The notes under the pieces were generated by a model, which did no database searches, had not been told where the DNA came from, and saw nothing but the letters and a program-made list of their open reading frames with translations. A DNA stretch of 38,024 nucleotides from a virus. Made by a program: the position numbers and the translations under genes. The DNA lies in the IMG/VR virus record IMGVR_UViG_3300034061_003894, positions 1 to 38,024 of that record. The stretch is one strand, 5' to 3'. Below, piece by piece: positions 2,087 to 35,521 of this stretch (the stretch's first letter is position 1; every line of letters starts with the position of its first letter).

Positions 2087-3898
2087 TCAGGTGATCGTGA
2101 TGGCGCGCGAGAACGCGCCGGCCTGGCGGATGCCCACGTCGACCGTCGCCCACGCCCGCACGCCGATGATCCCGGCCGGGAAGTTGGCGTACGGGTTGAC
2201 CTCGAGCTCGAGGTCCGCCCACATGCCGACGATCACCTGCGAGAAGTCGCCGAACACCATCGAGGCCGCGGTCAGCGCCGTGGTCGTGGTCGCGCGGAAG
2301 CCGGCCATCTGGCCGTCGAGCACCGACCCTTGCCACAGCGGCGTGTCGGTGTTCGAGAACCGCGCGCGCTGGGCGAGCAGCGCCGCCACCGCGGGCGTGG
2401 TGACGTACGCACAGCCCGGGACCAGCGCGTTCGCCGCGGCGAGGTCGGTCTGGAACTCGAGCACGCCGGCGTAGCCCAGCGTCGTGCCCGTCACCGACCC
2501 GATGCCACCGGTGCCGCTGATGCCGGTCGGCTGCGCCGAGCCGCTGCCCTCGAAGCCGGCGATGTCGATCGCGCGCGCGACGACGGCCGCCAGGTCGTCC
2601 ATCACGATCTGCTCGACGCCCGGCGCCGACTGCTGCGTGAGCTGCTTCGAAATCTCGGTGTACGCGCCCACCTGCTTCGGGGTCATCGTCACCTGACCGA
2701 TCGTCTGGTCGCTCTCGGTGATCGCCGTCGCCTCGTTCGTCAACCAGTACGCGGTGCCCGCGCCGGTCTGCTTCGGAATCGCGACGTTGCCGACCAGGCC
2801 GGGCAGCATCCGCGCGCCCAGGCCGGCGAGCAGCGTGCGAGCGCGCAGCAGCTCGATGAACGAGCCGGCGAGCTGGTCGGTGCCGACGAGCTTGCTGCCG
2901 TTGTTCGCCGACGCCGCGGTCAGGTCCCGCTGCTGGACGTCGAACGGCAAGTAGAACGAGTTGGTGCGCTTGCTCGGGCCGATGCGCTTCTCGATCGCGC
3001 GGTGGGCCTCGAGCTCGAGCCCGGCCTTCGACCAGTCGCCGGTGGCGGCGGCCAGCACGGCGCGCAGCACCGAGTAGCGCTTGACGTCTTTCGACTCCAT
3101 GCCGAGCTCGGGCGAGCCCCCGGCGGTCGGCGCCGGCGCGCGCTTGCCCATCTCGGTCAGCACGTGCCGGCCGAACGCGTCGGCGGGCAGGTTGTCCGAG
3201 ACGGCCCGCTGCACGACCTGGTCGTCCACCGTCCAGCGACGCGCGATGGCGTAGATGTCGGCGATGCGCTGACGCTCCGCCGCTTGGATCGCCGCCACGT
3301 CGACGGCATGGGGTGCCGGCGCGGCCGGCTGCACGATGGGCTGTTCCATCTTCGCTTCCTTGTGCGGCTCATCGCCGCGAATGGTGATTTCCTGCTCGTC
3401 GCCGTCGTCGGCGCGACCGATCCCCACGGTGGGGTCGGCGGGCACGCTGACCAGCGACACCTCGAACGGCTCGAAGTCCATGACGCGGTAGGTCGGCACG
3501 CCTTCGACCTCGCGCTCGTGCTGCATCGCGTGGATGCGATACCCGAACGACGAGTTCTTCCGGATGCCGTCCTTGACGTCCTGGAACACTTCCTCGGCTC
3601 GCGCGCTTCGGCCGAAGCGCACCTTTGCCCGCGCCACGCGGTCACCGCCGATCGACACGTCCTCGATCACGCCCACGATGTCCCGCGAGTCGTGATCCAC
3701 CAACAGCGGCCCCCCCGCCTGCAGCCGGCCAAGGCGCATCGACGAGGGTTCCACGTTGAGCACTTCGACACCCCAGGAGCGCTCGTACGGCTCCTCGGAC
3801 GCGAACGCCAGCACCGCGGTCCTCGACTCCTCGTCGAGCGCCGCACGGTCCAGCGTGAACGACCGGAACTGGCGTCCGGCCTTAATCGTCTTGGTCAT
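2087..3898 (-). CDS. fused prohead protease and HK97-fold major capsid protein
   Basis: One 603-aa protein joins two usually separate head functions. Residues 1-165 resemble the HK97-type prohead protease (S78/U35): a His in LLVDHD (H69), a Ser in NSSFGY (S117) and an acidic residue in FEVSLV (E146) are the likely catalytic set. Residues 170-265 form an Ala/Pro/charged, helical linker that can act as scaffold (delta domain). Residues 270-603 fit the Phage_capsid family: N-arm, KQVGAYTEIS motif, GSGSAQPTGI loop near 452-460 and a C-terminal ANFPAGIIGVRAW segment. It follows the portal gene with a 17-base overlap. An in-frame ATG at 3349, with AAGGAAG 5 bases upstream, could make a separate 420-aa scaffold-capsid form, as with lambda C/Nu3 nesting. 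Confidence 0.92.
   Translation of the reverse strand: MTKTIKAGRQFRSFTLDRAALDEESRTAVLAFASEEPYERSWGVEVLNVEPSSMRLGRLQAGGPLLVDHDSRDIVGVIEDVSIGGDRVARAKVRFGRSARAEEVFQDVKDGIRKNSSFGYRIHAMQHEREVEGVPTYRVMDFEPFEVSLVSVPADPTVGIGRADDGDEQEITIRGDEPHKEAKMEQPIVQPAAPAPHAVDVAAIQAAERQRIADIYAIARRWTVDDQVVQRAVSDNLPADAFGRHVLTEMGKRAPAPTAGGSPELGMESKDVKRYSVLRAVLAAATGDWSKAGLELEAHRAIEKRIGPSKRTNSFYLPFDVQQRDLTAASANNGSKLVGTDQLAGSFIELLRARTLLAGLGARMLPGLVGNVAIPKQTGAGTAYWLTNEATAITESDQTIGQVTMTPKQVGAYTEISKQLTQQSAPGVEQIVMDDLAAVVARAIDIAGFEGSGSAQPTGISGTGGIGSVTGTTLGYAGVLEFQTDLAAANALVPGCAYVTTPAVAALLAQRARFSNTDTPLWQGSVLDGQMAGFRATTTTALTAASMVFGDFSQVIVGMWADLELEVNPYANFPAGIIGVRAWATVDVGIRQAGAFSRAITIT
3347..3361 (-). promoter_or_regulatory. internal ribosome-binding site and ATG inside the protease-capsid gene
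   Basis: AAGGAAG at 3361-3355 sits 5 bases before an in-frame ATG at 3349-3347 (Met184 of the fusion). Initiation here would give the scaffold plus capsid without the protease, in the excess over protease that head assembly requires. This is inferred from spacing and biology, and SD-like codons for Lys-Glu can occur by chance. Confidence 0.5.
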
Positions 3899-5357
3899 CT
3901 TGCACCGCCGTTTCCGGCGCCGGTTGCGGTGCCGCCTGCGGCAGCACGTTGGCGAGCCGGGCGTTCTCGGCCTCGAGCTCGCGCCACACTTCCTCGGGGT
4001 CCAGCCCCTGCTCGCGGATGATTCGGCCGCGCGTCGTCAGCCCGTTGCGGATCGCGAGCTCCGCGGCCTGTAGGTCCTTCATCGGGTCGACCCACTGCCA
4101 GCGCCGCCCCTGCCACAGCGCAGAATCGAACTTTGCGCGCTTGCCGAGCGGCAGGTTGAGTGCGCCCACGGTCAGCGCGGCATCCAGCCATTCGCTGTAC
4201 AGCGGCGCGTAGAACGACTCGATCAGCCAGCCCTGCAGCGCCTTCCAGGTCTCGCGCTCCTCGAGCACGCCGACCCGCGCCGAGCTGTAGTTCACGCGCT
4301 CGACGTCGTTGGCGAGATTGTGGTACGCCACGTCGAGGCCGGACGCGATGCCGCGCAGGCACGTCGTCACGAAAGCGCCGAACTGCTCGTGCGGGTACTG
4401 GGGATTCCAGCTCTCGAGCGAGTAGCCCTCGGGCAGCCCCATGAACTCGCCCGGCTCCGCGCTGATCTGCGGCAGTTGCGGGTCGTCGCTCGGCTGAGTG
4501 CCCAGCGCCGGCGTCACGTCTGCCTCGGCCGTCTTGGTCAGCACGCCCATCTTTGCGGCGCCGACGCGTGCAGCGATCACCGCCGCCTCCTCGTAGCCGT
4601 CCAGGTCTCGCATCCGCCGCATCGCCGTCGCCATCCACGGCTCGCCGCGGAGCTGGTCGACGTCATGCGGCAGGAACAGGTGCACGATCTCGCTGGCCGG
4701 AACCCGCGTGCGCTCGGTGACCCGGTTCATGCCGGTCATCACCTGCACCGCCTGGTCCTTCGTCAGCCAGTACGCCGTCGGCCGGTTCATTGCGTCGAGC
4801 TCGACGCCCATCCGCACCCGCGCGCCGCCCACCAGGTCCTCGTTGTGCCTCGGGTCGAGCCGCTCCGCGCTCACGAGCTGGTACTGCACACCGTAGCGGC
4901 CGGCGCCCATGTACCGGCGCACCATCACCTCGCCATCGAGCACAAGGCGCTGCAGCAGCAGCCGCTGAAACTCCGTCCACGTGTACCGGCCTGTGACCTC
5001 GAACTCGCCGCGCTTCACGAACCGCGCGAACTGGCCCTCGAGGTACGCCGAATCGACGACGTCGAGCGTTCCGTCGGGCCGCAGCGCCTGCACCTGCAGG
5101 CTCATTCCGGCCGGGCCGATCACGTTCTTGACCACGAGGCTCACGAAGCGCCGCGCGTAGTCGTTGTTCCGGAACAGGTCGCGCGAGCGGCTCTGCAGCG
5201 TCAGCAGGTCTCGGTACAGTGCCGCGTTCGTGCGCTGGTGCTGCGCGCCCCACGACGCCGTCAGCCGCCCGACGTGCGCGCCGGCGTAGCCGGTCGTTGC
5301 GTTGCGCTGCTGCCGCACGAACCCGAGCCGCGCAGCCAGCCGGTCGGCCCAGCTCAC
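3882..5357 (-). CDS. portal protein, lambda gpB family
   Basis: The 491-aa protein forms the dodecameric ring through which DNA enters and leaves the head. Family signs include SRDLFRNNDYARRFV near residue 60, NVIGPAGMSLQ near 80, DGEVMVRRY near 140, LVSAERLDP near 165, EIVHLFLPHDVDQLRG near 250 and AARVGAAKMGVL near 290. Length is close to lambda gpB (533 aa). The start at 5357 overlaps the stop of the gpW-position gene by 4 bases (ATGA). Its 3' end overlaps the protease-capsid gene by 17 bases. Gene order (terminase, connector protein, portal, protease, capsid) is canonical. Confidence 0.92.
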   Translation of the reverse strand: MSWADRLAARLGFVRQQRNATTGYAGAHVGRLTASWGAQHQRTNAALYRDLLTLQSRSRDLFRNNDYARRFVSLVVKNVIGPAGMSLQVQALRPDGTLDVVDSAYLEGQFARFVKRGEFEVTGRYTWTEFQRLLLQRLVLDGEVMVRRYMGAGRYGVQYQLVSAERLDPRHNEDLVGGARVRMGVELDAMNRPTAYWLTKDQAVQVMTGMNRVTERTRVPASEIVHLFLPHDVDQLRGEPWMATAMRRMRDLDGYEEAAVIAARVGAAKMGVLTKTAEADVTPALGTQPSDDPQLPQISAEPGEFMGLPEGYSLESWNPQYPHEQFGAFVTTCLRGIASGLDVAYHNLANDVERVNYSSARVGVLEERETWKALQGWLIESFYAPLYSEWLDAALTVGALNLPLGKRAKFDSALWQGRRWQWVDPMKDLQAAELAIRNGLTTRGRIIREQGLDPEEVWRELEAENARLANVLPQAAPQPAPETAVQDDQDD

Positions 5358-5917
5358 AGCCGCACCTGCAACGCGTAGCCCGGCGTCTCGCCGGCCATCA
5401 CCCGGCGGGCCACCGCTTCGGACTCGACTTCCGCCTTGTAGCGGTCGCGCAGCGCGAGCAGGTCAGCGATCGGCGTGCGCTTGAGCATCCGTTCTCCGAT
5501 CCGGTACTCCTCCTGGTCGCGCGTCGCGCGCCCTTCGAGCACCGCCTCGATTGCCTCGAGCACGCGCCGCGCGTGCGATCGCACGTCCTGCGCGGCCGTC
5601 GCGGTGCCCGCGCGCAGGTCGGGCAGGACGCGCAGCTCGCCGCTGTCGACGGTGTACTTCTCGGCGCCAGACTCGACCCACGCGACCCACGCGTACGAGC
5701 CGGCCGCATACGGCGCGGTCGTTGCGGCCGCGACGACGACGGCGTGCGCGACGCCGTCCGCAGCCGCTGTCACCTCGAAGCCGCCCGCCGCGTTCTTGAA
5801 CCGGTACTTGAGCGTCCAGGTCGGCGCCGGGTAGTCCTCGAGGTCCTCGCGGCGCCACTTCCACGTGTCGCCCGCGCGCAGCTCGCTCGGCTCGTTGGTC
5901 GGAATGCTCGCTGCCAT
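5354..5917 (-). CDS. head-tail connector-position protein, gpW-like C-terminus
   Basis: This 187-aa protein occupies the slot of lambda gpW, between large terminase and portal, but is nearly three times longer. Residues 1-100 look like a beta-rich Ig or jelly-roll module (AGDTWKWRREDLEDYPAP, then repeated strands). Residues 110-180 are helical and end with RTPIADLLALRDRYKAEVE, a segment seen in phage proteins of this position and reminiscent of the gpW helical pair. It may therefore stabilise packaged DNA and receive the tail, or be a fused accessory domain. It starts one base into the terminase stop and overlaps portal by ATGA. Family assignment is tentative; being a real gene is near certain. 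Confidence 0.6.
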   Translation of the reverse strand: MAASIPTNEPSELRAGDTWKWRREDLEDYPAPTWTLKYRFKNAAGGFEVTAAADGVAHAVVVAAATTAPYAAGSYAWVAWVESGAEKYTVDSGELRVLPDLRAGTATAAQDVRSHARRVLEAIEAVLEGRATRDQEEYRIGERMLKRTPIADLLALRDRYKAEVESEAVARRVMAGETPGYALQVRL

Positions 5918-8001
5918 CAGTTTCGCCAGCCCTTCACGAATCCGCCGGGACGCACCCGGCCGACTTTCCTGGACGCCGCCGGCGCCGCGACTGGTGCCGC
6001 ATCTCGCGCCGAATCCGCCGCGGCCCCGCCATCCGGCTCGCCGCCAGCCAGCGCACCAGGCGCTGCTTCACGTGGAACATCCGCCGGCGGATCGCTCAAC
6101 AGGTCGCGCTGCGTGGGGCTCACCCGCTCGCGCAGCCTTCCCCACATCGCCTCGGTGAACCGGTTCAGGTCCAGCGCGTGCGCCGCGAACAGCGCGTAGA
6201 CCGCGCAATCCCATGCCTCGTTGCGCGCTCCCGAGTCCTTCACCCACACGAACCGCTGCCCGCGAGCCGTGCGCGCCAGCACGCGCTGCTCCGAGGTCAT
6301 CTGCTGGTACCACTCGTCCGCCAGATCCGCCGCTAGGTGCACGAACCCCGGGCCCGGCTCCTTGACCCGCAGGTGCGCGTGCCACCAGTCCTTCGCCGCG
6401 GTCACGCCGACCATCCACAGCTTTACGCCGTGCTTCACCACCGACCCTCGCCAGTTCACGTCGACCGGGCTCGCCCGGCCCTTGACCGGCATTCCGGGCC
6501 GGTCCATGCCCTTGATGGCGTAGGTCCGCCGCACCCACTCGACCCCGGCCGCGCGGACCCGCGTCGAGTGCCGGGCCCGGCAGTACGCGTACACCGCGTG
6601 CGTGCAGTGCCCGCCGGTGTCGATCGCCGCGGCCTCGACGCCGAGCGTGTTGCCCGACGCGTGCCTGTAGCGCTGCTCGAAGAACGCGTCGAGCCGGTCC
6701 CACACGGTCGGCTGGCCGCCCGGTGTGCGCTCGGTCTGCGACGGGTCGCCCCAGATCTGCGCGACGTCGACGACCGCGCACTCGTCGCCCGGGCCCCACC
6801 CCCAGACGACCACCTCGAGGCGGTTGTCCTGGGTGTCCACGCCCGCGGTCAGAACCAGGCACGCCTCGGGAACTTCCCGCAGCGGCCGCGTGCCAGCGCG
6901 GGCCCGCAGCCAGTCGCCGTCGAGCCGCGCGCCTTCCTCGCGGTAGGTCTCCGCGAGACGGGTGTTGATCCACGTCTTGCGCGGCTGCGGGTCACCGCGC
7001 TCGGCCGACTCCTTCGCTACCAGGTACTCGGCGACCAGCTTTCGCCAGCTGAACCACCCGAGCGGCGAGTACAGGCTCGACAGGTGGTAGCTCCGCACCG
7101 CCGCGCCGGGGTTCTCCGCGACCCACACCCCGCCGGCCAGCATCGCGGTCTTGTGGTGCTCCTCGATCTCGCCACCGCAGCCCGCGCACACGTACGCCGC
7201 CGTCGACGGGTCGTCGTCCCGGTATCGCAGCCCCGGGCCCTCGTCCTCGCCGATCCAGACCAGCCGCTGGTAGTGCCCGCAGTGCGGGCACGCCACTTGG
7301 TAGCGGAACCGCGTCCCCGCGTCGAACCGCGCCTCGATCAGCGACAGCCCCTTCGGCCGCTTCGGGCTGCTTGTCACGAGCAGCTTGCGCCGCGCGAACG
7401 TGTCCTGCCTGGCCGTCGCGATCTGCAGCGGCTCGCCCTGCCCGTCGACGTCGAGCGGATAGTCGTCGACCTCGTCGGCGTGGATGTACCGGCACGGCAT
7501 CGAGGCCAGCCCCGCCGCGCTGTTCGCGCCGGTGATGACCACCAGCCCGCCCGGGAACTCCTTCAGCAGCGTGGTGTTCCCGCTGTCGCGGGAGCGCGAC
7601 TCGCGCACCTTGCCGGCCAGCACCGGGCACGCGCGGATCATCGGCGCAATGCGCTGCTTCGAGTACCGCTTCGCCAGGTCCACCGTAGGCTGGATCAGCA
7701 TCATCGGCCCCGGCACGTGGTCGATGATGTAGCCCAGCCAGTTGTTCCCGCTCTCCGACTTCGAGAGCTGCGTGCCGAACATCAGCACCACCTCCGCGGC
7801 GTCCGACGAGTCGGACAGGTCGCGCAGGATCTGCCGCATGTACGGCGTGCGCTCGGTCCGCCACGGGCCCGGCTCGGCCGACGTCTCGCGTGGCAGCACC
7901 CGGTGCTGATCGGCCCACTCGTCGACCGCCAGCAGCTCGGGCAGCGCCAGGTGCTCGGCGAACAGCTCGTCGACGAGCCGCCACGCGTCGACCGTGCTCA
8001 C
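5917..8001 (-). CDS. terminase large subunit, GpA family
   Basis: The 694-aa DNA-packaging motor and nuclease. The GpA-type Walker A variant is TQLSKSESGNNW near residues 77-88. Walker B with its catalytic acid is YIHADEVDD at 172-180, and a coupling motif LLVTSSPK lies at 207-214. A zinc-ribbon-like pair, CPHC (238-241) and CAGC (272-275), follows. The C-terminal nuclease begins with LTAGVDTQDN (D389) and continues with AIDTGGH. GpA-type enzymes normally act with a small subunit at a cos site and leave staggered ends. The start overlaps the small-terminase stop by ATGA. The C-terminal 60 residues are Pro/Ala-rich and probably contact the portal. Confidence 0.95.
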   Translation of the reverse strand: MSTVDAWRLVDELFAEHLALPELLAVDEWADQHRVLPRETSAEPGPWRTERTPYMRQILRDLSDSSDAAEVVLMFGTQLSKSESGNNWLGYIIDHVPGPMMLIQPTVDLAKRYSKQRIAPMIRACPVLAGKVRESRSRDSGNTTLLKEFPGGLVVITGANSAAGLASMPCRYIHADEVDDYPLDVDGQGEPLQIATARQDTFARRKLLVTSSPKRPKGLSLIEARFDAGTRFRYQVACPHCGHYQRLVWIGEDEGPGLRYRDDDPSTAAYVCAGCGGEIEEHHKTAMLAGGVWVAENPGAAVRSYHLSSLYSPLGWFSWRKLVAEYLVAKESAERGDPQPRKTWINTRLAETYREEGARLDGDWLRARAGTRPLREVPEACLVLTAGVDTQDNRLEVVVWGWGPGDECAVVDVAQIWGDPSQTERTPGGQPTVWDRLDAFFEQRYRHASGNTLGVEAAAIDTGGHCTHAVYAYCRARHSTRVRAAGVEWVRRTYAIKGMDRPGMPVKGRASPVDVNWRGSVVKHGVKLWMVGVTAAKDWWHAHLRVKEPGPGFVHLAADLADEWYQQMTSEQRVLARTARGQRFVWVKDSGARNEAWDCAVYALFAAHALDLNRFTEAMWGRLRERVSPTQRDLLSDPPADVPREAAPGALAGGEPDGGAAADSARDAAPVAAPAASRKVGRVRPGGFVKGWRN

Positions 8002-9371: not shown

Positions 9372-9568
9372 GCCTCGCCCGCCCACATCCTGCGCCGGAA
9401 CACCTCGCCGGCGATCTCGCCCGCCAGCTCCACGACGACAGCGCTGTGCCCTTGCCGCTGCATCGCGCGCCGGGCCGCATCGGAGAACGCGACCTCCGCC
9501 CCTGCCCGCTGGCCCGCGACCCGCAGGATCTCGACGACGTAGTGCGCGACGGCCTGGTCGACGGTCAT
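9368..9568 (-). CDS. small hypothetical protein, first gene of the late operon (66 aa)
   Basis: A 66-aa mainly helical acidic-to-neutral protein with no membrane segment. It is the first gene after the paired terminator hairpins and ends with a GTGA overlap into the gpZ-like gene. The ribosome-binding site is weak. I do not recognise it; position suggests an accessory to packaging or virion assembly. Confidence 0.6.
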   Translation of the reverse strand: MTVDQAVAHYVVEILRVAGQRAGAEVAFSDAARRAMQRQGHSAVVVELAGEIAGEVFRRRMWAGEA

Positions 9569-9574
9569 CGGCGG

Positions 9575-10135
9575 TCAATCGACAAAGGCCCGCCGACCCG
9601 AAGGCCGGCGGGTAAGTCCGCCTGACGACGGACGGGGAGGAGAGGCACCGCAAACGAAAGGCCCGGCAGACTGCACCGGGCCTTCAGGGGCACGAGACCC
9701 CAGATTGCCGGATTCTGCATGGCCGTGAGCACATTGGGAAACTTGGCCGGGGACGGTTGCGCCCCAGTAGGCCACCGTCCGGATCACCAGGTCGATATGC
9801 CGGCTGACGGTTGCCGGCGCGATGCGGTGCTCGCGCGCGATGAACCGGTACGAGAACTCGCCGCCGAAGTGCAGCTTCGCCTGGATCCGCACGTCGGCGG
9901 GCAGGCTGTTCACCGCGTCATCGACCCAGCTGCAGTGCGTCTCGTTGATCGGGGCCATGTAGTGCTCGGCCGACCGGTCCACCCGCTGCAGGTTCGCCAG
10001 CACACTCGGGCCGTAGCCGAGCGCGCCGCTCGTGCGCTGCATCAGCCAGCGGCCCCACGCCTGCAGGTCGTGCCGCGCCCGCTCCAGGCGTGCCTCGTGT
10101 TCCTGGTCAGCGTCGCGGGTGCTCCGTGCCGTCAT
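9575..10135 (-). CDS. Q-like late antiterminator
   Basis: Residues 25-125 fit the Q-like group: a WGRWLMQRTSGALGYG opening near 27-42, a central stretch that counts on an acidic helix (WVDDAVNSLPADVRIQAKL), then a helix-turn-helix (FIAREHRIAPATVSRHIDLV). Proteins of this type bind near the late promoter and modify RNA polymerase to ignore terminators. A GGAG site precedes the ATG at 10135. The last 60 residues are Pro/Gly/Ser/Arg-rich and encoded across two terminator-like hairpins (9684-9658 and 9612-9589), so this tail looks like read-through and may not be conserved. The next genes downstream are the late operon, as for lambda Q. Confidence 0.6.
   Translation of the reverse strand: MTARSTRDADQEHEARLERARHDLQAWGRWLMQRTSGALGYGPSVLANLQRVDRSAEHYMAPINETHCSWVDDAVNSLPADVRIQAKLHFGGEFSYRFIAREHRIAPATVSRHIDLVIRTVAYWGATVPGQVSQCAHGHAESGNLGSRAPEGPVQSAGPFVCGASPPRPSSGGLTRRPSGRRAFVD
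9589..9612 (-). terminator. terminator hairpin 2 before the late operon
   Basis: A 10-bp stem closed by a TTCG tetraloop on the minus strand. One G-T wobble becomes an A-C mismatch on the plus strand, so the structure favours minus-strand RNA. It is followed by CCTTTGT. It lies inside the C-terminal codons of the Q-like gene. Confidence 0.65.
9658..9684 (-). terminator. terminator hairpin 1 before the late operon
   Basis: A perfect 9-bp inverted repeat (AAGGCCCGG / CCGGGCCTT) with a 9-base loop, followed on the minus strand by TCGTTT. With hairpin 2 it forms a tandem terminator upstream of the late genes, the expected target of Q-type antitermination. Confidence 0.7.
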
Positions 10136-10319
10136 CGCGTTCTCCGATCCCCGGCCACCAGGTGCCGATCTCGTTGCCGTTCTCGCTTGCCCAGAAACAG
10201 GCCCGCCCCTTCATCCCCTCCCGGATGACGCCGTTGACCTGGTCGGCGCCGAAGGCGGCCCTCAAGTCGTCGATCCATCCCGTCACCTGCGGCATCAGCC
10301 GCCTCATCTCCTTCGCCAT
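10107..10319 (-). CDS. conserved phage protein upstream of Q (70 aa)
   Basis: A short protein with two helices (WIDDLRAAFGADQVNGVIREGM) and a closing CFWASENGNEIGTWW. A similar pattern, F-x-A-x-ENG-x-E-V/I-GT, recurs in small phage proteins next to Q or recombination genes. Function unknown. The ATG at 10319 has no good ribosome-binding site and follows directly on the repeat array. Later Met codons (residue 5 or 9) are possible starts. It overlaps the Q-like gene by 29 bases. Confidence 0.65.
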   Translation of the reverse strand: MAKEMRRLMPQVTGWIDDLRAAFGADQVNGVIREGMKGRACFWASENGNEIGTWWPGIGERDDGTEHPRR

Positions 10320-10324
10320 CTATC

Positions 10325-10582
10325 GGTTACGCGGTTACGGTTGAGGTTACGCATCGGAAATCCGGAGACCCGCATGGATGCTGGCGAGTTACGGAGGAGA
10401 CGCGGTTACGGGTGTTTCCTGATCCCATGCGAGAGATGACCGAAGCCCGGACCGCGACGCGCGCGTGTGCGCGCACATGGGAGAGTTGGAGAAACACGCG
10501 TAACCGCGTAACCGCGTAACTACCCGCATGGTTAAGCCATCCGCTGGTTACAGGTCCGCGCGCGACGCGTAACCGCGTAACC
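10325..10582. repeat. iteron-like array of an 8-bp motif (candidate replication origin)
   Basis: About ten copies or near-copies of GGTTACGC occur in this gene-free stretch. Plus-orientation copies start at 10325, 10333 (GGTTACGG), 10345 and 10404 (GGTTACGG). Weaker forms lie at 10388 (AGTTACGG) and 10546 (GGTTACAG). Inverted copies (GCGTAACC) start at 10498, 10506, 10567 and 10575, with GCGTAACT at 10514. Several are head-to-tail with an exact 8-base period. The array lies just downstream of the primase-helicase gene. Clustered iterons beside a replication gene suggest an origin or a site for an initiator or regulator. The inter-copy GC-rich part (10457-10478) can fold. Confidence 0.6.
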
Positions 10583-10595
10583 GCCGAGGCGCGCA

Positions 10596-12836
10596 TCATT
10601 CGTCCTCGCCCGGGCCGCGGCAGAACACGCGAAGCACCCGCTCGAACTCGGCGACCGCGTCGGTCGCCCACTGCCCGGCCGTGACCCCTTCGGGCGGTGC
10701 ACAGCCATCCGGCACCCACATCCGGGTGGCGAGCTTGCCGCGCTCGGCCGCGTCGAGCTTGATGACTTTCGCGCGCACCTGGCCGCGCGCGGCCTTGTCG
10801 AGCGCCTTCGAGAACACGACCTGCGGCGGCGGGAAGCGCTCGCCGGCCGCCTGGCACCAGTGTCGGAACGCGCGGTAGAGCTGCTCCGAAGCGCACACCT
10901 GGAGGGGGAGGGGGAGATAGCCGCCCAGCCACTCGCGCACGAAGCGCTCGGGGGGCTTGAGCCCGAGCTCGATCAGGTCGGCCTTCGCGCGGGTCATGAT
11001 CGGCCGCGTGTGCGGGCCGAAGTCGCCCAGGTCACGCTCGAGCAGGTGGCGCAGCAGGCGCGCGGCGCCGCCGGCCTTTAGGAACGCGCCGACGCGCTGG
11101 TAGAGCGACTCCTCGGCCCGTGGCGGCGTGTAGACGACCATGTACCGACGGTCGTCGGGCTCGAGGGCCAGCGGCTGCTGCTCGTTGGAGAGGAACACCA
11201 CGTTCACGTGGTTCTTCTCCGTCCGCAGCGGCAGCATCTTCGCGTTGATCTGGATCGTGTCGCCCGTGATGAACGACTTCAGCTTGTTCTTCTGGTGGTA
11301 GAGCTCGGCCTTCGCGACGACCTCGTCCCCGATCAGGAACAGCTTCTGGCTCGCCCAGTCGTTGAACTTGTCCTCGAGCTGGTCCTGCCCCACGACCAGG
11401 CCGTATTGCCCGTAGATCGACGCGACCGCCTCGAAGAACAGGTTCTTCCCGGCGCCCTGGCCGCCGTGGAACACCAGGGCGCTCGCCATCTTGGCGCCGG
11501 GGTGCTGCAGCGGATAGGCCAGCCAGTCGAGCACCCACTTGAGCACAGCGTCGACGCCCGCCTCGGTCGCTGCGGAGTCGGCGCACAGGTGCCCGAGCAG
11601 CTCGAGGATCGGCCCGACGTCGCCCTCGGCCGGCTCCATTGCCAGCCCGTCGAACAGGTTGATGCAGTCATCGCCGGCCGTGCCGCGAGGATCGAACACC
11701 AGCTGCTCGGGCAGGATCATCCGCCGGCCCTCGTCGGCCAGCCAGAGCTTCACGACGTCGGGCCCGAAGGCGATCCGCAGGTTCGCCACCCGCACGATGC
11801 GGCGCGTGCGGCAGTCGTACGCTGTGTCCGTGCTGTAGATCAGCACGAACTGCTCCATCAGCTCGTTGAACCGGCCCATGTCGACCGGCCGGCGGCGCCT
11901 GGGCGGCCTCGCGCGCCCCTCCTCCCCCTCCGGAGCGCGCGCGTCGGCGGGCGCCTCGTCAGAGGGGGGAGGAGGCGGCGGCTCCTCACGGGCCCGCGGC
12001 CGCGTCGAGATGTTGCGCCCGCCGAGCTCCTCGGCATGACGGAACACCCAGCGCCAGTGCATGTCGCGGCGCTTGAGCTTGCCCGGGTCGAACGACGCCC
12101 ACACGCGGCGCGCGTCGGCCGGGTCGTACTTCGGCGAGCGCTGCGACCACTCGTCCCAGATCGCGAAGCCGTGCTCGGCGACCGTCGACAGCGCCCAGCC
12201 GACGTTGACCCACACCTCGCGATCGTCGCTCGAGATCGTCGCGAGCGTCGCGCGCAGGTCGGCGACCTGCTGCGGCGTGAGGATCTCGGCGCCGGCGCTG
12301 ACCGCCTCGGCGACAGCGCCAATCCGGCGCAGCAGCGCCTCGGGCGCCACCGCGATCTCGGGCACGTCCCCCGACAGCACGTCCCAGTCGACAAACGCGT
12401 AGGGCGTGCCGCTCGGGTGGAGGGATGGCTCGACGACGATGTAGCCGTTCCACTTCAGGTCGATGCCCCGCCAGATCGAGCTGATCGGCTCGAAGCCGGC
12501 CGGCACGCGGTACAGCACGTGCAGCCCGCCGCCGCCGGTCTGCGCGTGCAGGGTCCCGGCGGTATCGAACGGCAGCGCGGCGACGTCGCCGCCGTTGCGC
12601 GGGTCGACGTCGACCGCCACGAGGCCAGCCATCCCGACCGCGATGCCGATGCCGGCGCCAGGGAACAGGCGCCACCAGCGCTCGATCTCGCCCAGGTCCG
12701 TCGTCGCGTCGAGGAAGCCGCGAGGCACGCACTTCGCGACCGGGAGCTTCTCGCCACGACGGATCGGCAGCACGGGCCAGCCGTGCTTGGCGTACGCCAG
12801 CGCGTACGCGACCCCAGGCACCACGTCGGTCGTCAT
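10596..12836 (-). CDS. primase-polymerase / SF3-type helicase replication protein
   Basis: The start at 12836 overlaps the preceding gene by ATGA; a longer frame to 12977 lies within that gene. The 746-aa product has an N-terminal bifunctional primase-polymerase domain (residues 10-170), with catalytic acids in VAVDVDPRNGG (D76, D78) and a His in GGLHVLY (H106). A PriCT-2-like helical module follows at about 190-270. Then comes a Pro/Arg-rich linker (285-320) and a C-terminal helicase of the DUF5906/D5 kind: Walker A GGQGAGKN (458-465), Walker B LFLIGDE (499-505), motif C VVFLSNEQQP (547-556) and an Arg pair in DDRRY (561-565). It should prime and unwind phage DNA, probably at the adjacent iteron array. 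Confidence 0.9.
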   Translation of the reverse strand: MTTDVVPGVAYALAYAKHGWPVLPIRRGEKLPVAKCVPRGFLDATTDLGEIERWWRLFPGAGIGIAVGMAGLVAVDVDPRNGGDVAALPFDTAGTLHAQTGGGGLHVLYRVPAGFEPISSIWRGIDLKWNGYIVVEPSLHPSGTPYAFVDWDVLSGDVPEIAVAPEALLRRIGAVAEAVSAGAEILTPQQVADLRATLATISSDDREVWVNVGWALSTVAEHGFAIWDEWSQRSPKYDPADARRVWASFDPGKLKRRDMHWRWVFRHAEELGGRNISTRPRAREEPPPPPPSDEAPADARAPEGEEGRARPPRRRRPVDMGRFNELMEQFVLIYSTDTAYDCRTRRIVRVANLRIAFGPDVVKLWLADEGRRMILPEQLVFDPRGTAGDDCINLFDGLAMEPAEGDVGPILELLGHLCADSAATEAGVDAVLKWVLDWLAYPLQHPGAKMASALVFHGGQGAGKNLFFEAVASIYGQYGLVVGQDQLEDKFNDWASQKLFLIGDEVVAKAELYHQKNKLKSFITGDTIQINAKMLPLRTEKNHVNVVFLSNEQQPLALEPDDRRYMVVYTPPRAEESLYQRVGAFLKAGGAARLLRHLLERDLGDFGPHTRPIMTRAKADLIELGLKPPERFVREWLGGYLPLPLQVCASEQLYRAFRHWCQAAGERFPPPQVVFSKALDKAARGQVRAKVIKLDAAERGKLATRMWVPDGCAPPEGVTAGQWATDAVAEFERVLRVFCRGPGEDE

Positions 12837-13090
12837 CGCAGCCAGTCGTCGCTGAAGATCGCGCAGCGCGTCACCTGCGCCGGACCGTAGACCGCCACCG
12901 GCCGCGTCGAGTGCGCGACGCGCGTGCGCTCGAGCACCGCGGCCTCGCCGAGCTGCTTGAGCTGGTGCAGGTGCCACGAGGCGTCCGGGATCGACAGCTG
13001 CAGCCCGTAGGCGACTTCGCGCGCGGTCGCGCGCTCGCGCTCACGCAGGAACGATGAGATGAGCCGGAGCTTCACGCGCGGCCGGCCCAT
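12833..13090 (-). CDS. winged-helix DNA-binding protein (85 aa)
   Basis: Residues 7-60 have a compact winged-helix pattern: LRLISSFLRERERATAREVA, a second helix in a SIPDASWHLHQLKQLGEA segment that fits an ArsR/MarR-like recognition helix, then a short wing (VAVYGPAQV). It is small, basic, cytosolic and precedes the primase gene with an ATGA overlap. It could regulate leftward transcription or help load the primase. The fold is inferred from pattern; the family is not identified. Confidence 0.6.
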   Translation of the reverse strand: MGRPRVKLRLISSFLRERERATAREVAYGLQLSIPDASWHLHQLKQLGEAAVLERTRVAHSTRPVAVYGPAQVTRCAIFSDDWLR

Positions 13091-18013: not shown

Positions 18014-18303
18014 TGCGACTGATGGACATCCAAGCGATCGCCGACATGCTGGGGCTGAACGCCGCGCACGTCCGCGACCGGCTGACGAAGCGGCGCGACT
18101 TCCCGCCGGGCTACAGAATCGGCGGCGCGCTGCGCTGGAAGGCCGAGGACATCGAGGACTGGATCGAGTCGCGCAAGGTCACCCCAGCCGCTCGGCGATC
18201 GAGGAGGCCGGCTCGCGGTAGTACGTCAGCAGCTCCGACAGGTTCGAGTGCCCCGACATCCGCGCCAGGTCCAGCGGCTGCAGAACCTTCGCTAGCCGCG
18301 TGA
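18013..18303 (+). CDS. excisionase-like (AlpA/MerR-type) DNA-binding protein
   Basis: Residues 3-57 have a MerR/AlpA-like fold: MDIQAIADMLGLNAAHVRDR, a loop with a basic FPPGYRIGGALRWK segment, then EDIEDWIESR. Phage excisionases of this type bend attP DNA and steer the integrase to excision. The last 40 residues (TSAAPTGSSAPT, AAA) are low-complexity and antisense to the integrase C-terminus, so they may be non-conserved. The gene ends inside the convergent integrase gene, with 125 bases in common. Confidence 0.7.
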   Translation: MRLMDIQAIADMLGLNAAHVRDRLTKRRDFPPGYRIGGALRWKAEDIEDWIESRKVTPAARRSRRPARGSTSAAPTGSSAPTSAPGPAAAEPSLAA

Positions 18304-19168
18304 GCGCCGTCGCGCGCGAGTCGTGAAACACGAACCCGGCCAGCCCTGCCGCCTCGCGCGCTCGCCGGAAGGTCGCGTCAAGCGTGTCGCCCTCCACGTG
18401 GAAGATCCGGCCGTCGGCAGCCGAGCGCGGATGCAGCAGGCGCTTTCCGCCCATGATCCGCAGCAGCTCGACCGCGCGCGTGGAGAGCGGCACCTCGCGG
18501 CCCGGCCCGGTCTTGGACTTGTGCAGCACCGCGACGCGGCGGCGGTAGTCCACGTCGGGGGGCCTAAGCGCCAGGATCTCGCCGGCCCGCATGGCGGTCT
18601 CCAGCGCGAGCAGGAACGCCACCGCTGCCTCGTGCTTGACCGTCTCGACCGTGGCACCGTCGAACCCGAGCGCGGCGACCATCGCGTCGCGCTCGGCGTC
18701 GCTGATGAGCCGCTTCCTCGCCGGCTGCTTCGGTGGGCGCTTCACGTCGCGGACCGGGTTGACCGCCACCCAGCGCAGCTCGAGCCGCGCGACCTCGATC
18801 ACGCCGCGCAGCAGCGTGAACTCGCGGCGCACCGTCGCGGGCGCGACGACCTTGATCCGCTCGTCGCGCCATGCGGCGAGGTCGGCCGGAGTCAGCTCGG
18901 CAAGCGGCTTCTTCGCCCATGCCCGGCTCTTGATCTCGGCGAGCCTCGCCCGCTCGGACCGGCCGCGCGGCTTCTGGCCGAGGAAGTGGTCGATCGCCTG
19001 CGCGAGCGTCTGCCTGCCGGCCGGGCCAGTGCCGTCGAGCAGCTCTCCCTCGCGCCGCACGATCCAGTCGGCGGCTTCCTGTCGAGTCTCGAAGGTGGCC
19101 GAGTCGCGCACGCCGCGCCGGAACACCTCGGCCCGGTACGTGCCGCCGCGCTTGCGGATGCTCCCCAT
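18179..19168 (-). CDS. int: tyrosine-recombinase integrase
   Basis: The start at 19168 (MGSIRKRGGTYRAEV) is set by the classic phage N-terminus (GSIRKR...YRAEV is an arm-binding AP2-like module); longer frames have no homology. The product is 329 aa. The core SAM-like domain spans 55-145. Catalytic residues are R194 in TAMRAGEI, K217 in HKSK, H282 and R285 in HDSR, H307 in SGHS, and Y316 or Y317 near TYY. Together these make a complete active site. It recombines attP with a host attB, with Xis reversing. It is convergent and overlapping with the excisionase-like gene, and upstream are dyads that may form attP. Confidence 0.93.
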   Translation of the reverse strand: MGSIRKRGGTYRAEVFRRGVRDSATFETRQEAADWIVRREGELLDGTGPAGRQTLAQAIDHFLGQKPRGRSERARLAEIKSRAWAKKPLAELTPADLAAWRDERIKVVAPATVRREFTLLRGVIEVARLELRWVAVNPVRDVKRPPKQPARKRLISDAERDAMVAALGFDGATVETVKHEAAVAFLLALETAMRAGEILALRPPDVDYRRRVAVLHKSKTGPGREVPLSTRAVELLRIMGGKRLLHPRSAADGRIFHVEGDTLDATFRRAREAAGLAGFVFHDSRATALTRLAKVLQPLDLARMSGHSNLSELLTYYREPASSIAERLG

Positions 19169-19417
19169 CTTGTACGGTGCCCCCCTGGCGTGGTTTGGCG
19201 TAACGCTACCACGGGGGCTACCGGAAAACGCTGGGAATTGTGGGGCGGTGCGAGAATTGGCGGAACCGGCTTGACTGCCCGGAAACGCCCTATCCATGCG
19301 GATCTTGCTTGAATCTGATGGTGCCCCGGGCGGGCACCGATCACCTAGCAGTGGTGCGGCCCGGCGAGCCGTTGGCGTAGGATTGGCGAACGGCTGCGCG
19401 CCGGGGAGAGTGACGGG
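19169..19417. other. integrase upstream region, candidate attP
   Basis: This 249-base gene-free region separates divergent genes. It holds a 23-bp dyad with GTGGT/ACCAC arms (19190-19212) and a GCGTAACGC core, two near-identical CCGGAAAACGC / CCGGAAACGCC direct repeats (19221 and 19279), and two GAATTG boxes (about 19235 and 19254). Repeated short sites like these suit Int/Xis/IHF arm binding at attP. A tRNA end was looked for and not found. The att core cannot be named from this window alone. Confidence 0.35.
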
Positions 19418-19612
19418 ATGGATGAGACCAACTGCGAATGGCTCGATGTGACGACGCCATGCGACGTCGACCGCGTGCTGCTGAACACGCGCACAGGCGA
19501 GAGACGGGCCGAGCCGTGGCCGACGGTCTCGCCGACGATGCAACTCAGGATCGATAAGCTGCTGCGAGAGCTGGGCGATGCGCCCCCACCCGAAAAGGCC
19601 GGCGAGCCGTAG
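19418..19612 (+). CDS. isolated small protein between integrase and late operon (64 aa)
   Basis: The only plus-strand gene in this region. A purine-rich GGGGAGAG precedes the ATG by 8 bases. The product is hydrophilic, acidic-basic and helical at the end (MQLRIDKLLRELG). GC at third positions is about 80 percent, as in coding regions nearby. It overlaps the late terminator hairpin on the other strand. A moron expressed in the lysogen is possible, but nothing specific is recognised. Confidence 0.5.
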   Translation: MDETNCEWLDVTTPCDVDRVLLNTRTGERRAEPWPTVSPTMQLRIDKLLRELGDAPPPEKAGEP

Positions 19613-19621
19613 CCCGCCGGC
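19598..19621 (-). terminator. late operon terminator
   Basis: A perfect 7-bp stem (GCCGGCG / CGCCGGC) with a 10-base loop, followed on the minus strand by CTTTTCGG. It comes about 75 bases after the last late gene (19695) and before the integrase. Confidence 0.6.
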
Positions 19622-19694
19622 GAAGCAGAACACCACCCGCGCAGGTAGCGCAGGGAAGATCACAGGCCCCTGTACGCCGGGGCGGCGCGTAAGC

Positions 19695-29435: not shown

Positions 29436-30061
29436 GCGAGCACCTCGACGAACGACAGGTCGATCGGCTCGGCGTTGCGGGCCGACGAGGTCTGCTTCCA
29501 GGTGCCGCCGACCAGCATCCAGAGCGCCGCAGGCCGGTCCCAGACGACGGACGCGCCATTGCTCGCGGGGGCCCGCAGCGGCGGCTCGAACGTGATCCCG
29601 ACGGTGCCGCCCGAGACCGTGCCGCCGATGACCACGCGGACGACCTGCAGCGCGTAGGCGGCGGTCGTGGTGATGCCGAGCATGTCGCCCGCGAGCACCG
29701 TCTGCCCGTTGGTGCCGCCGGCAATCGTCGCGGTCGTCGCGCCCTGCGCGAGCGCGCCCGAGAGCGTCAGCGTGCCGCGCAGCGTGCCGTAGGGCACCGG
29801 GTGCTGCAGGTGGTGCGCGGTTACGCGGTTGTCGCCGCGCGCGATGCGCGAGATGAACGCCTCCTGCTGCGCGCGCTCGCCGAACAGCGTAGAGCGCCGC
29901 AGCGCAATGTCCATCGTCCACCGGTGCGAGTACGGCACCTCGGTCGTCTGCGCGTCGCCGCCGAGCGGCGGATCGCCGGAGCTCCTGCGCTTGCGCGTCT
30001 CGCCGAACGACAGCACGGCAGGCTCGAACAACTTGGTCGCCGGCCACGAGATGTTCGCCAT
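29432..30061 (-). CDS. distal tail protein (209 aa)
   Basis: First gene after the tape measure (TGATG overlap). The N-terminus is W-P-A-T-K-L-F-E-P, and the middle has a TMDIALRRSTLFGERAQQEAF helix, then a hydrophobic beta part, and ends with SFVEVLA. It resembles distal tail or tip-attachment proteins that ring the tube end (lambda gpM/L-like place). No catalytic motif. Assigned by position and fold-like pattern. Confidence 0.65.
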   Translation of the reverse strand: MANISWPATKLFEPAVLSFGETRKRRSSGDPPLGGDAQTTEVPYSHRWTMDIALRRSTLFGERAQQEAFISRIARGDNRVTAHHLQHPVPYGTLRGTLTLSGALAQGATTATIAGGTNGQTVLAGDMLGITTTAAYALQVVRVVIGGTVSGGTVGITFEPPLRAPASNGASVVWDRPAALWMLVGGTWKQTSSARNAEPIDLSFVEVLA

Positions 30062-33867: not shown

Positions 33868-34178
33868 CAGCTCAGGCTCGCGACGACGGACACGACGAAC
33901 GTCCGGGCGACGGTCTCGCCGTTGGACTTCACGATCGTGCAGGTGACCGGGTAGTCGGTCCCGGCCGTGCCGGCGCCGACGCGCTTGGTCGCCGTGCTCG
34001 AGGTCGTGCCCTCGTTCGAGCCCGTCAGCCCGCCGACCGACCAGGTCGCCGACGTGATCGTCACGCCGGCCTGCAGGTGCTCGGACCAGTCGATCGTGAA
34101 GTCGATCAGGTCGGCGGCGGCCTTGTAGACCCCAGCGAGGTCGTCGGCGGCGCGGCGGAAGAATCCCTGCGGCCTCAT
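33867..34178 (-). CDS. phage fiber-tail adaptor protein (103 aa)
   Basis: Start at 34178 (MRPQGFFRRAADDLAG) overlaps the repeat-protein stop by ATGA; a longer frame starts at 34220. The core DLIDFTIDWSEHLQAGVTI with SATWSV and then GTAGTDYPVTC matches the pattern of the fiber-tail adaptor family (Gp77-like), an Ig-like sandwich that links side fibers to the tail. The N-terminal 20 residues are basic. Its location next to the fiber-like repeat protein suggests that this is its client. Confidence 0.75.
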   Translation of the reverse strand: MRPQGFFRRAADDLAGVYKAAADLIDFTIDWSEHLQAGVTITSATWSVGGLTGSNEGTTSSTATKRVGAGTAGTDYPVTCTIVKSNGETVARTFVVSVVASLS

Positions 34179-35521
34179 TCGTCCAGCTCCCACGTGTACC
34201 TGCCATGCCGAGCGCGCCACTCGCGCCCGGACGCCCCGGCGACGAGCGCCGCCCGATCTGCCGGCGAGCGCCAGGTCAGGCGCCGCACGGTCGGGTCAGT
34301 CGGCGCCGCGTTGGACGTCGTCCCGGACCCGCTCGCAGTTGCCGCCGCAAGCGTGACCGCAGCCGCGCTGAACACCGCGATCGCCCCGGAGGCGGACGCC
34401 GTGGCCGCCCCCAGCGTGACCGCCGCCGTGCCGCGCACGACGATCGCACCCGACCCGCTCGCGGTCGCAGCCGCGAGCGTCGGCGTGACGGTGCCGAGCA
34501 CCGCGACCGATCCGGCCGCCGCGACCGTGGCCGCCGACAGCGTCGCCGCAGCGCTCGCCGAGACCGGGACGCCTGCCGCGCCCGACGCGGTCGCAGCCGA
34601 CAGCGCCGGGCTCGCGGAGGCCGAAATCGGCACCGCACCAGCCGCCGACACCGTCGCTGCGGCCAGCGTCACCGACAGGGTGCCGGTGGTCCCCGAGGAG
34701 ACCGAACCCGCGCCCGAGACGGTCGCGGCCGACAGCGTCGCGCTGGCGGTGCCCGAGACCGCGACCGACGCCGCGCCGGTGACCGTTGCCGCCGACAGCG
34801 TCGGGCTCGCGCTCGCCGACACCGCGACGGTGCCCGCGGCACTGACCGTCGCGGCCGACAGCGTGACCGCGAGCGTGCCGGTGACGCCCGACGCGACCGT
34901 GCCGGCGCCCGAGACCGTGGCCGCCGACAGCGTGACGCTCGCCGTTGCGCTGACCGGCACCGTGCCGGCTGCCGAGACCGTCGAGGCCGACAGCGTCGCC
35001 GATCCGGTCGCGTCGACCGCGACGTTCGCGGCCCCCGAGGCCGTCGCTGCGGTCAGCGTGACCGAGAGCGTGCCCGTGACGCCCGCACTCGTCGTGCTGA
35101 ACGCGCTCGACGTTTCCGGTGCCGAGTCGAGCGTCCCGTCCGACCAAACGAACGAAACCTTGTAGCTCGTCCCCGCCGTCAGCCCGGTCGCGAGCGACGG
35201 CCAGTCGACCGTCGTCGTCGAGGTCGGCGACGCGATCGAGCCGGCCCACGTCGCGGCGGCGCTGGTGCTGTCCTGCCCGAGCTTGATCTGCGCGGCCGAT
35301 GGGGCGCCCAGCGCGCTCGGGTAGATGACCGCGTAGATGTACGCCGAGACGACCCGTTGCCGCGCGACGCCATCGCCCGCCCGCTGCGGGTAGGTCGCCG
35401 ACAGCCCTGTCGTGAGCCGCGCGCCCCGCAGCGGCCCGCGCGCACGGAAGCCCGCGACCGAGCCGGCAGAGCCGACGTCGCGGACTAGGCGTGCGGAGCC
35501 GCCACCGGCGCGCAGGGCCAT
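34175..35521 (-). CDS. fibrous virion protein with 12 tandem 21-residue repeats (448 aa)
   Basis: Residues 1-150 include a globular start and an FN3-like module (PSLATGLTAGTSYKVSFVW). Residues 154-408 are 12 units of about 21 aa with the consensus V/A-T-L-S-A-A-T-V-S-G-A-G-T-V-A-V-S-G-x-A-S; two units are 23 long. The pattern fits a beta-solenoid or filament. A C-terminal segment (RRLTWRSPADRAAL) and a W-rich end (REWRARHGRYTWELDE) follow. Its neighbour is the fiber-tail adaptor, so it is probably a thin fiber or decoration. Placed between the LamG-like/712-aa proteins and the tail genes. Confidence 0.75.
   Translation of the reverse strand: MALRAGGGSARLVRDVGSAGSVAGFRARGPLRGARLTTGLSATYPQRAGDGVARQRVVSAYIYAVIYPSALGAPSAAQIKLGQDSTSAAATWAGSIASPTSTTTVDWPSLATGLTAGTSYKVSFVWSDGTLDSAPETSSAFSTTSAGVTGTLSVTLTAATASGAANVAVDATGSATLSASTVSAAGTVPVSATASVTLSAATVSGAGTVASGVTGTLAVTLSAATVSAAGTVAVSASASPTLSAATVTGAASVAVSGTASATLSAATVSGAGSVSSGTTGTLSVTLAAATVSAAGAVPISASASPALSAATASGAAGVPVSASAAATLSAATVAAAGSVAVLGTVTPTLAAATASGSGAIVVRGTAAVTLGAATASASGAIAVFSAAAVTLAAATASGSGTTSNAAPTDPTVRRLTWRSPADRAALVAGASGREWRARHGRYTWELDE
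34298..35062 (-). repeat. 12 tandem ~63-bp coding repeats
   Basis: DNA encoding the 21-residue units of the fibrous protein. Units are diverged but keep period and GC-rich third positions; unequal recombination could change the copy number and fiber length. Confidence 0.7.

Follow-up and report, generated by a model that had tools for sequence, protein, structure and literature searches.

Genomic context of the repeat array

The DNA analyzed here (the window) spans a complete virus record, 38024 bases long. It carries integrase (18179-19663), portal, capsid, tail (tape-measure-like) and terminase genes, and from this gene content we infer that it represents a temperate tailed phage. At the DNA level, similarity to named phages was limited to weak matches in four records, all confined to the primase. 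Apart from the locus described below, long tandem repeats of about 63 and 195 bp were observed at 34326-35085, within the ORF 34175-35521. The features of the replication locus are as follows:

10596..12977, minus strand: proposed initiator primase-helicase (Prim-Pol, PriCT-2, SF3/D5-like helicase, predicted C-terminal winged helix)
10716..10805, minus strand: codons 725-754 of the primase-helicase, predicted recognition helix and wing, covarying with the iteron word
10326..10581, no strand: proposed replication origin, a two-sided iteron array (from site mapping and layout conservation)
10499..10581, minus strand: near arm, adjoining the primase, with GTTACG at 10576, 10568, 10515, 10507 and 10499
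10326..10410, plus strand: far arm, with GTTACG at 10326, 10334, 10346, 10388 and 10405
10531..10552, plus strand: flipped degenerate sites within the near arm, GTTAAG (10531-10536) and GTTACA (10547-10552)
10457..10479, no strand: 23-bp alternating purine-pyrimidine tract at the array centre, the second hallmark of the locus
10368..10377, plus strand: ACCCGCATGG box, exact copy 1 of 2 (repeat family D9)
10522..10531, plus strand: ACCCGCATGG box, exact copy 2 of 2 (repeat family D9)

The primase-helicase ORF comprises 793 codons and contains Prim-Pol, PriCT-2 and DUF5906/VapE-like domains. An ATG at 12836 overlaps the stop of the ORF 12833-13090 (window 12834-12836, minus strand) and is probably the true start of the primase, rather than the GTG at 12977. 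A structure model of the protein was built from 43 window and locus sequences; its pLDDT is mostly above 90 across the helicase and the C-terminal domain, while the N-terminal half is modelled poorly. The C-terminal domain, composed of helices followed by two strands, is predicted by this model to be a winged helix. The best structural match is the C-terminal region of the NrS-1 phage polymerase (Z 25.7 over 362 residues), followed by the SaPI5 primase-helicase (Z about 17) and then by SF3 helicases of animal viruses.

The array is bounded by the stop codon of the primase-helicase (10596) on one side and by the start of a 70-aa ORF (10319) on the other. It contains ten GTTACG cores, five on each strand. 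The nearest core starts 15 bp past the primase stop, and the first site lies close to the stop in most relatives as well; the edge of the far arm is separated from the listed start of the next ORF by about 6-7 bp. For this small ORF, AAGGAG is present just ahead of an ATG at 10307 (window 10305-10319, minus strand), which suggests as a possibility that translation starts there, four codons after the listed ATG. Exact GGTTACGC occurs in six copies within the array, and one further copy was found outside it, at 29819. The 8-mer CGGTTACG reaches seven copies per 300 bp, as compared with a maximum of six (attained once) and a mode of four in 100 dinucleotide shuffles of the whole window. The repeat array beside the primase-helicase is thus real and exceeds chance expectation. 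An earlier sequence-only reading had described about ten units in direct and inverted halves that end where the small gene at 10319 starts, and both statements held. The exact 8-base period that it also reported held only in part: this period is confined to the tandem runs 10324-10339, 10497-10520 and 10566-10584, and does not extend through the array.

The array centre is less GC-rich than the genome (62.8% versus 70.5% GC), but it is not AT-rich in absolute terms; over 50 arrays, the centre averaged 53.6% GC against 59.5% for the locus. No Rfam family matched the window. GC-skew analysis of the whole window, proposed earlier as a check, revealed no clear turn at the array (10.4 kb), and the cumulative curve flattens near 15-16 kb; we set this result aside because gene direction may dominate the skew.

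Conservation of the layout in relatives

In the window itself, a generic score for opposed arrays equals 10, which is only the maximum observed among 462 control windows, and the case for function therefore rests on conservation. The score is the number of sites that match the best seven-letter word (with at most one mismatch) and are placed in opposed arms, within a region of 350 bp beginning 12 bases ahead of the primase stop. Our first sample included 80 relatives from viral contigs, four of which were too short, leaving 76 testable loci. A score of at least 11 was obtained for 63 of these 76 loci and for none of the 462 control windows, and a score of at least 10 for 68; the control maximum was 10. 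After removal of near-copies, 40 of 53 viral relatives still scored 11 or more. The second sample consisted of 78 loci retrieved from bacterial genomes by protein profile, with scores of at least 11 in 42 loci versus 2 of 926 controls (38 of 74 when near-copies of each other were left out). The two samples partly overlap, since the site patterns of L199, L225 and L230 equal those of L022, L033 and L038, respectively.

By this score, no array was detected in L028, L034, L075 and L077 among the viral relatives, nor in L196, L201, L210 and others among the bacterial-genome loci. The score penalises flipped sites, however, and several loci (L070-L072, L207, L209, L214, L220, L256) score low despite having 10 to 12 sites. 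Typical arrays have about six sites in each arm, with variation in count. The spacing in one layout, exemplified by L061, is 9, 12, 12, 32, 9 in the first arm and 9, 9, 42, 12, 20 in the second; another, seen in L008, consists of 9, 11, 11, 21, 9 plus its mirror. A third layout (L207, L209, L214, L220, L256) carries one flipped site per arm, arranged mirror-wise, and the window resembles it by virtue of the degenerate flipped sites at 10531 and 10547 in its near arm. The site positions of a close relative from a Burkholderiales metagenome-assembled genome (L195), with a primase 86% identical in the best segment, nearly match those of the window.

The spacing is conserved across relatives, whereas the repeat word differs by lineage. 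GTTACG is the word of one clade, and elsewhere we found GTTGCG, TGTGCG, TGTGCAGG, TATTACG, CGCTACG, ACCACGG, CACTACG and GTGAAGG. The origin proposal made earlier was to be considered refuted if the motif were not conserved beside homologous primases; this outcome was not observed, in that the layout is kept and the word changes. In four relatives (L006, L007, L010 and L022), a AAACCCGCG-like box lies between the iteron groups of the near arm; the window has its two ACCCGCATGG boxes.

The central alternating tract was also found to be a recurrent feature. The longest alternating purine-pyrimidine run has a median length of 18 bp in array regions versus 8 bp in controls, and in the first sample 37 of 54 array regions contained a run of at least 16 bp, as compared with 4 of the 1384 control windows. 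The corresponding counts for the second sample were 41 of 78 and 5 of 926. The tract might help to open the duplex in a supercoil-sensitive manner or might serve for priming, but both roles are guesses. At the array centres of L067, L070 and L083, the core lies between GCGCGAG (left) and CTCGCGC (right), and at least one of these words was seen in 22 of 54 array regions.

Distribution in named phages and around the repeat word

Among 727 named-phage records with a match, we examined 13 by score, and BPP-1 in addition. Stenotrophomonas phage S1 has a score of 16 directly after the primase; its annotated gene gp2 (L181 2454-2804) overlies the array and is likely not a gene. The Pseudomonas phages Turba, Lodos and pAN carry TGTGTTGGGT arrays that are recognizable by eye, although their scores are only 7 to 9; by eye, the outer three sites of their far arms are turned round. 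Halomonas phage H4907 shows CAGACA runs in both arms, yet its score is 5. The status of Moraxella phages Mcat7 and Mcat1 (score 8), PG1 (6) and SC_9 (7) is unclear. No array was found behind the primase in phages BPP-1, AAT-1, QDWS359 and phiVC8.

A search in the opposite direction, from the repeat DNA to the protein, started from the exact 15-mer GGTTACGCGGTTACG, which occurs in 95 viral stretches. Six or more GTTACG per 300 bp were found in 32 of them, the other 63 having no such cluster. Of these 32, 19 also contain a relative of the helicase, and in every case a distance of 12-270 bp separates the motif from the end of the helicase match; L093, L134 and L157 are shared with the first set of relatives. 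In the L195 genome, the 15-mer (with at most one mismatch) occurs four times, all inside one 258-bp stretch. For the other 13 GTTACG clusters no helicase match was found, and neighbouring ORFs were scanned at nine of them. Three of the nine neighbours are primase-helicases of other types (PriCT-2/Toprim/DUF927 in L163, Prim-Pol/D5_N in L166, VapE-like in L164). The remaining six comprise one DUF3987 protein, one UvrD helicase, one weak methyltransferase match and three ORFs without a Pfam match. In L163, the cluster (6387-6615) directly follows the PriCT-2/Toprim/DUF927 protein (3519-6380), an initiator of another type, and this case suggests that the layout may be shared more widely.

Covariation of the repeat word with the primase-helicase

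For the analysis of covariation between repeat word and protein, we used 46 loci, after removing eight of 54 non-redundant loci in which the array or the word was ill defined (L028, L034, L044, L054, L066, L073, L075, L077). Word distance correlates with winged-helix distance at 0.617, as compared with 0.299 for the distance of the helicase core. The partial correlation of the word with the winged helix given the helicase is 0.585 (p=0.0005, 2000 permutations), versus -0.183 for the helicase given the winged helix. Sliding windows of 20 residues reach their maximum at residues 725-754 (0.70 and 0.77), which are placed by the structure model at the predicted recognition helix and wing. A replicate set included 54 of the 78 bacterial-genome loci, namely those that reached a score of 9 or more and had no near-copy in the first set. 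In this set residues 725-754 gave a partial correlation of 0.561 (p=0.0005), with the peak again at 735-754 (partial 0.55). A weaker second peak at residues 395-424 appeared in both sets. An example is the pair L061 and L056, which are 91% identical in the helicase core and only 44% identical over residues 715-756, and whose words differ.

These Mantel tests handle ancestry only via the helicase distance, so that shared ancestry is not fully removed. As covariation, the result is shown in both samples: the iteron word tracks residues 725-754 of the primase-helicase. On the same basis, and in the absence of binding data, the C-terminal winged helix of the primase itself is the probable reader of the word. 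The separate winged-helix ORF 12833-13090, which had been suggested as a binder, received no support.

Proposed origin and alternative explanations

We consider it very likely (probability about 0.85) that the array is the replication origin of this temperate phage, read by the winged helix of its own initiator, with helicase rings loaded from two sides; no replication or binding data are available. Three observations support the origin assignment proposed in the sequence-only reading, namely the position of the array, the conserved layout and the covariation with the primase-helicase. All steps of the mechanism, from binding through ring loading, melting and priming to bidirectional replication, are inferred, by analogy with SaPI Rep and Cch2 (PMC7581432). 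In this model, the C-terminal winged helix of the primase-helicase would bind each short repeat, and the opposed arms would collect initiator subunits in opposite orientations, giving two SF3 helicase rings, one per arm. The central spacer, with its lower GC content and an alternating tract that could absorb supercoiling, would melt; the Prim-Pol domain would prime, and forks would depart in both directions. About six sites per arm would fit one hexamer per arm, although the number of sites is not constant, and in the window five are intact in each orientation.

A stem-loop origin, in which the initiator recognizes a long hairpin formed from one strand or an extruded cruciform, is in our opinion unlikely. 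In its favor, the region folds far better than its shuffles (z -5.9, and -9.8 in L061), and the bases in the spacers between iterons show more pairing at the iteron register than at other registers (0.347 versus 0.254, with an excess in 59 of 73 loci), which leaves a cruciform possible. Moreover, hairpin recognition has been proposed for plasmid pRN1 and Bordetella phage BIP-1, and replication of pRN1 needed an intact stem (PMC4234260). Good folding, however, is expected of any opposed array, and no array was found in BPP-1, which together with BIP-1 is the published stem-loop case. The arms of the commonest layout are not mirror images (9, 12, 12, 32, 9 versus 9-21, 12, 43, 9, 9), and the turned outer far-arm sites of Turba, Lodos and pAN cannot pair with the near arm, yet they are kept. 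Unequal arms and turned outer sites argue against a cruciform as the general rule.

The array could instead be a regulatory node that governs the genes downstream of the primase through operators for the winged-helix ORF 12833-13090 or for the Q-like protein, as the sequence-only reading had offered for the Q-proximal genes. The far arm indeed ends 7 bp from the next ORF, and weak Q-like and sigma-region-4-like matches (E about 0.008) lie just downstream, at 9575-10135. Against this, a scan of 9500-10700 detected no promoter-like or terminator-like site, and the word covaries with the winged helix of the primase itself. A regulatory site is also disfavored because the array remains beside the primase, whereas the genes that follow it vary: the longest downstream ORFs, taken from 88 loci, represent 29 families. 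We regard this explanation as very unlikely, even though an origin would be compatible with autoregulation by the initiator. A packaging or recombination site (cos/pac or att) built of repeats is nearly ruled out: the terminase genes are located 2 kb downstream of the array in the window, but across relatives with varied downstream genes the array follows the primase, and not terminase or integrase.

Comparison with known replication systems

The two-sided origin proposed here differs from the origins of iteron plasmids in having five iterons in each orientation instead of a single orientation. The earlier remark that the arrangement is unlike ordinary single-orientation iterons therefore held, and the arrangement matches published PICI origins instead. 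PICI origins have the same two-sided organization, which no other known bacterial replicon was said to share (PMC6092414), and in SaPI Rep and Cch2 the C-terminal domain reads iterons downstream of its own gene (PMC7581432). As in PICIs and SaPIs, the array lies directly 3' of the initiator gene (PMC6092414, PMC7581432), and two iteron sets flank a central region, which in those elements is the melting region. Reading of iterons by the C-terminal domain of the initiator is described there, whereas here it rests on covariation alone, without binding data. PICI/SaPI-type origins also have an AT-rich core; the centres measured here are only lower in GC than their surroundings (62.8% versus 70.5% in the window). 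Unlike PICIs and SaPIs, the window is a complete temperate phage with terminase, portal, capsid, tail and integrase. Since the positional and iteron features are met and the satellite criterion is not, we classify the locus as a variant of the PICI origin, and not as a PICI; that it works like a PICI origin is not backed by bench data. In the PICI/SaPI literature examined (PMC6092414, PMC7581432), we found neither the 6+6 spacing nor a central alternating tract nor covariation at the level of residues, and no description of such an array in phages was found in the open-access literature searched.

Several other systems share parts of this organization. The pRN1 origin and the proposed BIP-1/BPP-1 origin are likewise located 3' of a protein with Prim-Pol, SF3 helicase and winged helix (PMC4234260), but a stem-loop without iterons was proposed for them, in contrast to the iteron array described here. 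Phage P4 alpha is an initiator with helicase and primase functions whose winged helix binds repeats at the origin (PMC4234260); its primase is of the bacterial Toprim type, and not a Prim-Pol as in the window. SCCmec Cch2 has a D5-type helicase and a C-terminal domain that binds direct repeats downstream of its own gene (PMC7581432), but its binding site has only three iterons, and its partner is a separate polymerase pair rather than a Prim-Pol fusion. The NrS-1 polymerase, the best structural match, forms a hexameric ring; the published account presents the tail domain as a new fold and guesses the position of the origin from two 8-nt sites (PMC7102993).

Implications

A bolder reading joins these elements into one picture, and as a whole we hold it with slightly more doubt than belief. 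It states that a large family of temperate proteobacterial phages has a fixed origin geometry (about six sites and one hexamer per arm), and that the word has changed repeatedly, in step with the recognition helix and wing, even at 91% helicase-core identity. Such switching would ensure that prophages and satellites residing in one cell do not fire the origins of one another; the alternating tract would be a conserved supercoil-sensitive element that sets duplex opening.

Our analysis places the two-sided origin organization, previously viewed as restricted to satellites (PMC6092414), in complete phages and in prophages from many hosts, and this is relevant to the question of where satellites acquired their origins. 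About a hundred loci share this geometry but vary jointly in the word and in a short segment of the protein, and they therefore provide a natural table for learning how a winged helix reads DNA. The same set of loci makes origin incompatibility between prophages directly testable, and the findings suggest what the tail domain of the NrS-1 polymerase, so far unexplained, may do.
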